Part shown: one piece after another, positions 35,410 to 43,662 of the stretch
How positions within the stretch are numbered: the first letter of the stretch is position 1
Layout of the letters: each line of letters begins with the position of its first letter
DNA from: Deuterostichococcus epilithicus
Lineage: Eukaryota; Chlorophyta; Trebouxiophyceae; Prasiolales; Stichococcaceae
Direction of reading: 5' to 3'
Length of the DNA stretch: 64,000 nucleotides
Assembly (NCBI GenBank): GCA_033439295.1
Contig: JAVTLE010000021.1
Location: 2,108,009-2,172,008 of the forward strand
Program-made: the position numbers and the translations under genes
Notes under the pieces: model-generated
The model's database searches: none
The model's input: the letters and a program-made list of their open reading frames with translations, nothing else
What the model was told of the DNA's origin: nothing

Positions 35410-35765
35410 GCTTTTGCAAGCCTGCAGCGACAGCAGACTGCTGCTGTGCCAGCGGCAGGACCGGCAGCAGCGTGAGTGGCAGCGGCAGCTGCCGCCGCAT
35501 CAGGCAGTTGCGGCTGCTGCGGCGGCAGTTGGTTGCGGCGGGCAGCCCCTGCTGCAGCGACATGCAGTTGCAGCTGGCTGCTGCGAGGGCTGTGGCAAGC
35601 GGGTGTGGCGGCTATGGCTTCAGCGGCAGCCCTAGTTGCAGCTGCAGCAACAGGCAGCATCCAGCATATGCGTGTTGCAGCGCCGGGCAGCCCCCGCAGC
35701 CAGCAGCAGCAGTCGGCCTGCAACAAGAACGGCCAGCAAAATTTGTCGACTGTGGGATTTGAACC
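35410..35765 (-). repeat. tRNA-linked ~355-bp repeat, copy 1
   Basis: Read on the minus strand, it starts with a 29-nt fragment of a tRNA-Leu 3' end plus flank (35765-35737: GGTTCAAATCCCACAGTCG and on). It then runs through a GCA/GCC-rich interior to TTGCAAAAGC at 35410. The same unit, inverted, occurs at 42833-43186 with only a few mismatches and three-base indels by eye. It contains several short open frames but no recognisable protein. Confidence 0.85.
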
Positions 35766-39629: not shown

Positions 39630-40286
39630 CGCTGCAATTTACTCTTGAGCGCATCCATGCTAGGAGACAAGTGGGCCCCAGGGGGGGGTCTGGCCCGCAG
39701 CCTGACGTTAGTCCGTCATGACGACCGCTCAGGGGCATTTTCGCTGCCACAAATTCTGCTTGCGATGACTGGCACAGGCAGCACGATGGTGCAGGCTACG
39801 GACAGATGGAGGCAAAGCCGGCGGATGCGCGGGACGCCGCAGATGACGCAGCTGCAGCACCGGAGCCAGCTCCTCCTCCGTCTGAGCCGACTGCAGCCGC
39901 GTCTCGGGAGGTGAACGAGGGCGCAAAATCCTCAGGTACACTTTGACCAGGGTATCCTGCGCTTTGGCAGCTGCTCTGTTCAAGTCCCAGCTGCGGCGGA
40001 GTCCGTGAGCGAGCAAGCAGCCATCGGGCATGCAGCGAGCTTTCTTTCTGGAAGACTCCCCGCACCATGTAGAGCATGCGTGGCTGGCCTGGGAAACCGC
40101 TTCAGTAGCAAGACCTTGCCCATCGAAGACCAGCTTGCACACAGAGTATGGCGTGCCAGTCGGCATCATGCGTTGAGGTCGAGTTTGAAGATTCACATTG
40201 GCATTGCAGATTCGGGGCCAAGCCATGCGATGCCCTCATCCCAGCGCCAGCTGTACAAGCCACAGCAAGCGATGAAGGAGCAGGTG

Positions 40287-40604
40287 CTCGACGAGGAGAG
40301 TAACGCCTCCATCGACAGCGCCGACGAGGCGCAGGAGGAGGCGGCTGCGGCGGATGCCGCTGAGGTGGCGGTCGACGCGCAGGCCTGGCCACCGTCGGCA
40401 CTGCCCAGCCGCCGTTCTACGGCTGCGCGCACGCGAACGGCGAGCCTCGACGAGGAGAGTAACGCCTCCATCGACAGCGCCGACGAGGCGCAGGAGGAGG
40501 CGGCTGCGGCGGATGCCGCTGAGGTGGCGGTCGACGCGCAGGCCTGGCCACCGTCGGCACTGCTCAGCCGCCGTTCTACGGCTGCGCGCACGCGAACGGC
40601 GAGC
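40287..40604 (+). repeat. 159-bp in-frame tandem duplication (53-residue unit, two copies)
   Basis: Units 40287-40445 and 40446-40604 appear to differ at a single base. On the + strand each encodes LDEESNASIDSADEAQEEAA followed by an Ala/Val-rich part and SRRSTAARTRTAS. The host frame is open from about 40005 to 40640. The opposite strand is also open, so the true coding strand is not certain; the acidic-then-basic + strand reading looks more protein-like. Confidence 0.8.
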
Positions 40605-40929
40605 CTACGGTCACCGAACCAGGAAGTTCCGCCGGCCTAGCAGCGGCGGCAGCAATAGTGACAGCAAGCCTGCCGTCATTGTGGGTGGTGCCGCCGCATG
40701 CTGCTGGATGGAGGGAGACAATCAATAATCTTGCCATGGCAGCGGCCTTTTGTCCTCCCATCATGAAAGACATGTTGTCGTCTAGGCGGAGTCGGCTCGG
40801 CTTCGACTAATGCTCCTGAATCGTGCAAAAATATGTACCCAGCTGCCACAGAGTACCACGCAGTTACAATTGGGATGAGGGGTGTCTGCTGCTCGCCTTG
40901 TAGCTGCCTGCAGCTATATGACTTTGCCA

Positions 40930-42126
40930 GGGTACAGTGCTCGTTTCTTTACTCGGGTCGCAAAAGGTCGCATGATGATCCAAGATTAGTGTCCGGCAGA
41001 TATATCACACCATGAGCAGCTCAAAGAGGGCGTCTTCACACATGCAAGACCGCCAGATGAGCCGGCGGTGAGAGCTTCATCATCCAAGAACAAATGCAAG
41101 TTTGCTCGAAAAGTCCAGAGCTCCACTGAGCTTCACACATGCAGTCGAGATAGCCTTGCCCCCGTCGTGTCTTTGCACTGAGAATCTGTATCACAAGCAA
41201 TTATCTTCGTCTTGGGTGGGGCGCCATGCAACACTACCTTGGGCAGATTTCCGCCACTGCTGGTGACGATGCAATCATTCGGCTTGACAGGCCGATCCTG
41301 GTGGCCTCGGGGCTGTGCCGCCTACACGCAGAGCTGGAAGCCACAGGCGCCAATTTGGCTGGGATTTTCCAGCCAATTGAGGTAGCTTCCAGCACTGCTA
41401 GCGCAGCTGTGGATGTTGAGCTGCTGCTGTCGGCCGACGGCCCCGATACAGTATGGGACGCTGTGGCAGCCTCGTGCGGCGATCCTGCTGCCGTGCATGG
41501 CCTGCGATACATGCTGGTGGGTGGGACCTCGGACTGCGCCAGCAATGCTGGAAGGTACCTCCAGATGCATGTTTACCGCCGCACGAGGCTGCCACAGCGT
41601 CCCACATCATATCAGGGCCGTCGGCTGACGCAGCAGCTTCACATCCACAGCTGCGCTAGCAATGCTGGAAGGTACCTCTAGTGGCTGGAAAACACCACCC
41701 AAACCGACGCCTGTAGCTTCTAGCTCTGCATGGAGGCGGCACCGATTTGAGGCCACTAGGACCGGCCTGTCGAGCTGAATGATTGCATCCTCACTTGCAG
41801 TGGTGGAAACCTCCCCGAGGGAGTGTTACATAGCGACCCACCCAAGACGAAGATAATTGCTTGTGATGCAGATTCACAGCGTAAAGACACGACGGGGGCA
41901 AGGCTATCTTGACTGCTTGTGTGAGGCTCGGTGGAGCTCTGGATTTTTCGAGCAAACTTGCATTCGTTCTTGGACGATGAAGCTCCCATGGGCGGCTCGT
42001 CTGGCGGTCTTGCATCTGTGAAGACGCCCTCTTTGAGTTGCTCATGGTGTGATTCATCTGCCGGACACTCTCATCAGGTTCATCATGCATTTTGGGACCT
42101 GAGTGAAGAAGGGCAAGCACTCTGGG
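40930..42126. repeat. Large imperfect inverted repeat (foldback), ~550-bp arms with ~93-bp loop
   Basis: The left arm (about 40930-41483) and right arm (about 41576-42126) are reverse complements at roughly 80-90 % by eye. Anchors include GTCCGGCAGAT (40991) with ATCTGCCGGAC (42056), GCTCAAAGAGGGCGTCTTCA with its complement near 42025, CAAGCAATTATCTTCGTCTT with its complement near 41850, and GACGCTGTGGCAGCCTCGTG with CACGAGGCTGCCACAGCGTC (41581). Both arms carry the same coding remnant (IIRLDRPILVASGLCRLHAE in the left arm). Confidence 0.88.
41226..41681 (+). CDS. Open frame inside the foldback, unrecognised protein fragment
   Basis: The first 110 codons read as plausible protein (MQHYLGQISATAGDDAIIRL, then VELLLSADGPDTVWDAVAAS). 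The rest crosses the hairpin loop into the right arm, so it is an artefact of reading a reversed copy. No family recognised. This may be a real gene fragment captured in the inverted duplication. Confidence 0.3.
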   Translation: MQHYLGQISATAGDDAIIRLDRPILVASGLCRLHAELEATGANLAGIFQPIEVASSTASAAVDVELLLSADGPDTVWDAVAASCGDPAAVHGLRYMLVGGTSDCASNAGRYLQMHVYRRTRLPQRPTSYQGRRLTQQLHIHSCASNAGRYL

Positions 42127-42738
42127 CGACGGTCCCAGCTCCCAGGGCGTCCTCCTCTACGTCAGCCCGCCGCATTTTCCTGGGATGGCTGTCGGAGGGT
42201 TGTTAATTTTGTCCGACAGGGGCCAAACTGGGATCAAAGAGCGCCGGTTTGCACGCTACACAAAGGCGCTTGATAAGATTGAAACCCCGCCGGGGCATGC
42301 AAGCACACACAAGTGCGACAATGAACGACGCCAGCCAGCGACACGTGGCCATTCCAACAACTTTGCGTTACACGGCATTACAGCCCCGCTGGCTCACGAA
42401 GCATGAGCAACTGATAGGGCGTTCAGCTGTAGAGCGGTAAGGCAGCGAAGACGAGCAAACGAACCGCAAACCATTGGGGCACGACAAAGCCCAGGGCAAC
42501 TGGGCAAGGGCAGGAGCGGTCATCCCGGGGCGGTCAGGCGGTCACACGATGCGTCTGGTCCGGCATGAGTGAAGGCCCTGCTGGGCGTCATATTCGGAAA
42601 ACATACCCACTCATAATCCAAACACCCGGAGAAGGCAGCTGTGTTGTATGGAACAACTCTCCGTGGATTACATATGCTGCGGCATTTTCGCAGATAGAGC
42701 CCGCAAAATTCGGCTGGTGACACCGAGCAGCAACACTC

Positions 42739-42854
42739 GTCGATTTGGCCGAGCGGTCTAAGGCGCTGGAATCAGGTCTCTTTCAATTCAATCAGAAATG
42801 ATCGGAGGATTTATCCAGTCCGAGAGGGCGTGGGTTCAAATCCCACAGTCGACA
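42739..42854 (+). tRNA. trnL-CAG: tRNA-Leu (CAG) with a 36-nt intron, second copy
   Basis: It has the same 80-nt mature sequence as the copy at 35857-35972, in opposite orientation. The intron (about 42777-42812) has the same length and site but differs at about 8 of 36 positions. At least 65 bp of 5' flank (TGCGGCA...AGCAACACTC) is also recognisably shared, so the genes arose by duplication of a larger segment. Boxes A and B are intact. Confidence 0.92.
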
Positions 42855-43213
42855 AATTTTGCTGGCCGTTCTTGTTGCAGGCCGACTGCTGCTGCTGGCT
42901 GCGGGGGCTGCCCGGCGCTGCAACACGCATATGCTGGCTGCTGCCTGTTGCTGCAGCTGCAACTAGGGCTGCTGCTGAAGCCATAGCCGCCACACCCGCT
43001 TGCCACAGCCCTCGCAGCAGCCAGCTGCAACTGCATATCGCTGCAGCAGGGGCTGCCCGCCGCAATCGCCTGCCGCCGCAGCAGCCGCAACTGCCCTGAT
43101 GCGGCGGCAGCTGCCGCTGCCACTCACGCTGCCGGTCCTGCCGCTGGCACAGCAGCAGTCTGCTGTCGCTGCAGGCTTGCAAAAGCTTCAAATCCCACAG
43201 TCGACAAATTTTG
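42833..43213 (+). repeat. tRNA-linked ~355-bp repeat, copy 2, flanked by tRNA-3'-end direct repeats
   Basis: The unit starts inside the T arm of the tRNA gene and is bounded by a direct repeat: TTCAAATCCCACAGTCGACA and seven more bases at 42835-42861, and again at 43187-43213. The interior (GCTGGCCGTTCTTGTTGCAG to GGCTTGCAAAAGC) is the inverted equivalent of copy 1. The right-hand direct repeat is a severed tRNA 3' end, not a gene. Confidence 0.88.
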
Positions 43214-43662
43214 TTGTGCACCCTGTCAAGCGGTCCTGCGCACCAGGCACGTTGCCATATTGGCGCGCAGCAGATTGCAGTTGGCTGGCGGACAAACTTC
43301 ACAACGATGCCGTCTCTGCAAGCTTGAAGACGTGCCGCTGATCGCTTGTTCTGCTCGAGGTTGCTGCCTGTTGCCAGATCCAGCCAAAGCCCTACACCAC
43401 TGGTAGGTAGCTGGACTGGGTCCGCCAGATGCTTTTATTCGGGATCAACTAGGTGAGGACCCGGAGTAGTTTGCTTTACAGTCAGCGTCTAACAAGCAAA
43501 ATGCACACGGGTTCAACACCACGTCATTGTTTATGTGCAGCTTAAAAGAGCCTGGCCACAAGTCTTTTGGCACATTCAAAACCAATCAGCTGCAGCCAGA
43601 CAGCCCGGCTTGCTGTTGGCAGCAGTACGCAGACACCAACAGCACATCGGCAACGGCGTCCA
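43214..43662. other. Intergenic region downstream of SF3B1
   Basis: About 450 bp with no coding signal. It includes the inferred SF3B1 3' UTR. Confidence 0.35.

Follow-up and report, generated by a model that had tools for sequence, protein, structure and literature searches.

Genomic context

The analysed window is a 64,000-nucleotide stretch of the Deuterostichococcus epilithicus genome (C18:2108009-2172008), taken from an assembly of 46.8 Mb in 21 contigs. A long palindrome was identified in it, and the coordinates of its parts and of two open frames are given in Table 1. To the left, an open frame on the + strand (39915-40640) ends at the stop codon 40638-40640. From the stop codon of this possible upstream gene to the start of the hairpin the distance is 296 nt. 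Codon usage was scored with a model built from just 340 codons of five conserved exons. When left out in turn (n = 5), these exons score 0.06 to 0.94, with a third-position G+C of 0.85-0.95. Two 240-nt segments within 40180-40539 have the best codon-usage scores of the region from 38.5 to 44.5 kb (0.03 and 0.15). Taken as a whole, 40287-40637 scores -0.08 with a third-position G+C of 0.79, slightly under the lowest held-out exon (0.06 and 0.85), and 39915-40286 scores -0.75. Because of these low whole-stretch scores, the upstream + strand gene is regarded as possible only. The hairpin could be intergenic or could lie in the 3' UTR of this possible gene. Two tandem copies of 159 bp (40287-40604; 99% identical) add a 53-aa repeat to the upstream frame. 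TGTAA is the poly(A) signal of green algae. It is absent from the + strand between 40.5 and 44.1 kb, which is uninformative as the whole window contains 13.

On the right side, the palindrome is followed by a dispersed repeat (42361-42641), a tRNA gene (42739-42854), and then the splicing factor 3B subunit 1 gene on the - strand, for which three frames match PDB chains (best E values 2.5e-34, 4.8e-25, and 8.2e-25). Two tRNA genes were detected in the window by Rfam and none by ARAGORN. The tRNA gene at 42739-42854 appears to contain an intron. A 354-bp segment adjoins each of the two tRNA genes in opposite orientation (42833-43186 and 35410-35765; 97% identical). The tRNA 3' end occurs as a 30-bp copy on either side of the segment at 42833-43186 (42835-42864 and 43187-43216), as if a cassette had entered at the tRNA end or the tRNA end had been duplicated. 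The dispersed repeat, about 230-280 bp in length, has at least 16 further matches at 15 places on 11 contigs, the longer of which are 70-77% identical. Seven copies, including that of the window, were aligned, and the repeat is SINE- or MITE-like.

Table 1. Coordinates of the palindrome and of the open frames at the locus (positions in the window).
Feature	Position	Strand	Remarks
Possible coding 3' end of upstream gene	40180..40640	+	Open frame; stop codon 40638-40640
Left arm	40936..41481	+	546 nt; 87% identity to reverse complement of 41577-42121 (pairwise alignment)
175-aa open frame (including stop)	41154..41681	+	Crosses left arm, spacer, and first 105 nt of right arm; judged most likely a chance opening
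Spacer	41482..41576	.	95 nt; set by alignment limits
31-nt extra copy in spacer	41534..41564	+	29/31 identical to right-arm 41651-41681
Right arm	41577..42121	-	545 nt; pairwise alignment

Structure of the palindrome

In self-alignment, the left arm and the reverse complement of the right arm share 541 paired columns with 70 mismatches (87% identity), and the alignment contains six gaps amounting to nine gap columns. Five of these gaps are confined to the outer 52 nt of the left arm (40936-40987), and the arm core, inward from 40988, has a single one-base indel. The best local score of the arm pair is 696, against a maximum of 29 among 483 same-length pieces elsewhere in the window. The palindrome is real, and chance is excluded. 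A sequence-only reading of this DNA had described an inverted duplication forming a hairpin of about 1.2 kb with a short loop of about 93 nt. Self-alignment bears out both features, with arms of 546 and 545 nt and a measured spacer of 95 nt. Within the spacer, the 31-nt extra copy is followed by 12 nt of filler and then by the start of the right arm.

A survey for inverted repeats covered 260 kb from 21 sources, comprising the window and 20 other stretches of the same genome. No inverted repeat of comparable length was found in these 20 stretches (196 kb, 0.4% of the assembly). The only other short-range inverted repeat in the surveyed 260 kb, with a total length of 140 nt, is located in a stretch of contig C19.

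Fold-back (template-complement) reads can create false palindromes, but the arms of these would be almost identical or would differ by errors rich in indels. The arms of the present palindrome differ by 13%, mainly through substitutions (70, against 6 indels), and the 45 transitions and 25 transversions among them form an evolutionary pattern. An assembly artefact of fold-back reads is therefore exceedingly improbable.

Divergence between the arms

Between the arm cores (40988-41481 and 41577-42069), 62 substitutions and one indel were counted. Two nearby repeats served as controls. Six comparisons of the window's dispersed repeat with its other copies gave 193 substitutions and 66 indels (Fisher P 3e-6 versus the core), the tRNA-flank pair gave 18 substitutions and 3 indels (P 0.047 versus the core), and the whole arms differ from the dispersed repeat with P 7e-4. 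All of these P values are too small, since ungapped extension set the limits of the core and thereby favours a low indel count, and since one sequence is common to the six comparisons. The shortage of indels hints at selection against them and speaks against free drift of the arms, which does not predict it.

Decay of the methylation type is not supported. CpG transitions are not significantly raised in the arms (16 of 45 transitions, compared with a permutation mean of 12.6; P 0.17), and the CpG-transition ratio of the arms (1.27) is similar to that of the control repeats (1.14).

Coding potential of the arms

The arms had also been interpreted as fragments of a coding gene that carry the same protein-like frame. 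The two arms do resemble each other as peptides (54% over the 175-aa frame), but this follows from their 87% DNA identity and is not evidence of coding, and the right-arm copy carries three stops in the register of the frame. The arm frame has a codon-usage score of -0.57 and a third-position G+C of 0.62, which are at the non-coding level, and its score is no outlier among 755 random open windows (median -0.70). Neither Pfam nor PDB gave a match to the 175-aa frame at E ≤ 10. As a protein query against the own genome, the frame matches this locus only, plus one outside hit at E 0.23. Two right-arm frames were used in the same way, and only the arms match them at significant E values. One of these right-arm queries gave four outside hits at E 0.145 to 1.76, and the single hit at E 0.23 is for this reason regarded as noise. 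Among viral contigs, 17 stretches matched a pattern and no relative was confirmed, which is a weak test for a eukaryote gene.

The changes between the arms are distributed over the three codon positions as 15, 10, and 21, a mild excess at the third position. Synonymous changes number 14, compared with 10.5 expected, and the difference is not significant (P 0.11). The Ka/Ks of the 175-aa frame is 0.56. In the six-frame comparison two minus-strand frames have a Ka/Ks of 0.55, indicating that the value is not frame-specific. Based on the non-coding codon usage, the absence of a Pfam or PDB match, and the absence of significant frame-specific constraint, the 175-aa frame, lying in G+C-rich DNA, is most likely open by chance.

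The gene-fragment interpretation could be kept if the palindrome came from a gene piece copied in inverted orientation, with a parent since lost or changed past recognition, or if it were a pair of head-to-head coding paralogues. The open frame across the left arm, the mild third-position excess, and the indel deficit between the arms would agree with it. The codon usage and third-position G+C, the negative Pfam and PDB searches, the absence of a parent from the own-genome searches, the similar Ka/Ks of other frames, the stops in the right-arm copy, and, as a weak test, the viral contigs all argue in the other direction, and we assign this interpretation little probability. A coding origin is thus not supported by the searches of Pfam and PDB, the three-frame protein searches of the own genome, or the analyses of codon usage, six-frame Ka/Ks, and codon-position counts.

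Search for a parent gene and further copies

Neither a parent gene nor a second copy turned up in the 46.8-Mb assembly, whether DNA or the three translated frames served as query. A search of the own genome with the 2.7-kb query 40600-43300, which scores the best candidates only, returned 24 matches. Two self-matches alone touch 40600-42360, and the other 22 lie at 42361 or beyond. The dispersed repeat, 70-77% identical between copies, was recovered in the same search, and a parent or second copy of such identity should therefore have appeared. The expectation that an unrearranged parent would be present elsewhere in the genome was thus not supported, since the DNA and three-frame protein searches gave only self-matches at significant E values.

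A foldback transposon had been named as the alternative to a duplicated gene piece. Foldback and MITE-type transposons resemble this locus in their long inverted arms, and here the spacer between the two arms is short and a dispersed repeat is located nearby (42361-42641). Unlike such elements, however, the locus has no second copy that we could find of either the arms or the ends, and its outer ends are ragged, since the match between the arms has no sharp outer boundary and is increasingly interrupted, five of the six gaps being within the last 52 nt. The surroundings of both ends were searched for shared exact words of 5 to 8 nt, and no in-register target-site duplication was found. The longest word shared around the ends has 6 nt and is out of register (40927 and 42142). 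A transposon is not supported by the own-genome DNA search or the target-site search, and a single-copy foldback or MITE-type element is very unlikely.

Predicted RNA structure and small-RNA machinery

Either strand of 40930-42126 is predicted to fold as RNA into one long hairpin, with free energies of -974.7 kcal/mol for the + strand and -965.4 kcal/mol for the - strand. The inner 679 nt have a folding z of -47.6 relative to 20 shuffles. These predictions agree with the earlier proposal that a transcript would form a long imperfect double-stranded RNA, since an imperfect duplex of about 545 bp is predicted for either strand. Between the arms there are six perfect runs of 20-31 bp, and 323 of the 530 21-column windows have three or fewer differences. 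Changes that keep a G-U pair account for 25 of the 70 substitutions in a + transcript and 20 of the 70 in a - transcript, showing no clear strand bias. The mismatch density is not uneven along the arms (P 0.35), and so no arm stretch is singled out as conserved. No Rfam family was detected in the arms at E ≤ 1.

The host genome probably encodes Piwi and RNase III domains, as judged by domain matches. The Piwi domain is matched in three pieces (exons) on contig C7, one of which exceeds the family cut-off. RNase III domain matches are just over the cut-off on contigs C19 and C3, and the scanned C19 frames fall below it. The C19 matches span about 5.5 kb, and a scan of 10 frames in this region showed neither a helicase nor a PAZ domain. 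With these domains in the genome, small RNAs could perhaps be made from a hairpin transcript, and small-RNA production from the hairpin is possible.

Such production may already take place at the locus, as a working hairpin-siRNA or proto-miRNA locus that is transcribed, folded, and cut by a Dicer-like protein. It would perhaps lie within the 3' UTR of the possible upstream + strand gene and would either make small RNAs or destabilise its host transcript. This reading is consistent with the long duplex predicted for both strands, the perfect runs and nearly matching windows between the arms, the Piwi exons and the RNase III matches in one C19 region, the position of the hairpin start 296 nt beyond the possible stop codon, the indel deficit, and the Chlamydomonas precedent for UTR and intron hairpins (PMC4817775). 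On the other side, no target locus was found, as the left arm and spacer have no match outside the locus at E ≤ 10 in an own-genome search that scored one candidate and that 21-nt targets would escape. The mismatch density is even, and the candidate processing region has RNase III matches near or below the cut-off and no helicase or PAZ domain in the scanned frames. We regard a working small-RNA locus as unlikely. A more speculative version, to which we give a still smaller chance, is a parentless hairpin-RNA gene that arose de novo from non-coding DNA beside the upstream gene, within whose 3' UTR it would lie. Selection against indels would keep its arms paired, and Dicer-like cutting would set the level of the host transcript or yield lineage-specific siRNAs.

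Comparison with known hairpin small-RNA loci

In the Allen model of plant miRNA birth by inverted duplication, as presented in the cited passages, the arms are expected to be similar to a parent gene (PMC1790633, PMC3237417). Plant MIRNA and siRNA loci such as MIR161 and MIR163 resemble the present locus in having long adjacent inverted arms with mismatch drift, a short spacer, and a self-pairing transcript. They differ in that their arms match a parent gene, whereas no parent was found here and codon usage is non-coding. A missing parent does not exclude a small-RNA locus, since the same passages report gene similarity for only 16 of 48 non-conserved MIRNA families in Arabidopsis (PMC1790633) and a proposed origin of miRNAs from chance fold-backs (PMC3237417). 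By this analogy, the locus could still work like a hairpin small-RNA locus. In Chlamydomonas, coding transcripts are the source of most miRNAs, through their introns and UTRs. The authors of that study suggest direct DCL3 action on mRNAs carrying UTR hairpins, and they consider it likely that no fewer than 43 mRNAs could be direct substrates of DCL3 (PMC4817775). The possible 3'-UTR position and a host with Piwi and RNase III domain matches are shared with these DCL3-processed hairpins.

Proposed origin by local inverted duplication

We put at roughly two in three the probability that the locus is a local inverted duplication of some age, now decaying, from which hairpin RNA could be made. No sign was found of descent from a known gene, of transposon nature, or of use. 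In the proposed sequence of events, an intergenic or 3'-UTR stretch of about 545 bp would have been copied once, in inverted orientation, beside itself. The occasion was most likely break repair or fork stalling, during which a 3' end folds back or switches template and copies the same segment. This would have left behind the 95-nt spacer with its short templated insertion, and the arms would since have drifted to a difference of 13%. One of the two arms may itself be the original, which removes the need for a parent gene outside the locus. The 31-nt extra arm copy in the spacer suggests local fold-back or template-switch synthesis, which is the most likely origin. Either arm could be the original, and that the duplication was local is inferred from a comparison of the two arms with each other. 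After 13% drift the original junction and any breakpoint microhomology are no longer readable.

Comparable events have been described in yeast, where short templated inverted insertions are formed by a fold-back mechanism at repaired breaks (PMC11724301), and another study deals with inverted duplications that originate from fold-back priming (PMC10622511). As far as the cited parts of these two studies show, their products share with the present locus an inverted local copy, a short spacer, and a short extra inverted copy with filler at the junction. Those fold-backs come from yeast experiments, most of the short ones being below 14 bp (range about 2-150 bp), whereas the arms here are 545 bp long and old.

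Transcription through the locus, for example by read-through from the possible upstream + strand gene, would produce a long imperfect RNA duplex, a possible substrate for small-RNA production by the RNase III and Argonaute-like proteins of the organism. If transcribed, the locus would be an example, without a detectable parent, of the starting material that hairpin small-RNA genes are thought to come from. It could then help to show whether such genes need a gene as their source or can be born from any inverted duplication. If untranscribed, it would be a clean example of an old local inverted duplication and a warning against inferring a gene from open frames in the two arms of a G+C-rich palindrome.

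Hairpin in the candidate Dicer-like region

The smaller inverted repeat of the survey, on contig C19 in stretch L026 (L026:1350-1515; C19:1139350-1139515), forms a strong short hairpin with a stem of about 60 bp and a 4-nt loop (z = -10.6; none of 200 shuffles as low). An RNase III-domain match of a candidate Dicer-like gene is located about 190 nt to its 5' side, and the hairpin is probably intronic. A parallel is the miRNA in an intron of Arabidopsis DCL1. A second copy of the C19 hairpin was not found in the genome, and an Rfam hit to MIR839 at this position is far under the gathering score (43.7 versus 200 bits). In the adjacent part of the same stretch (L026:780-1350), the RNase III region with the motif DIVESLTGA(V/I)FLDS seems to be tandemly doubled, possibly representing alternative exons.
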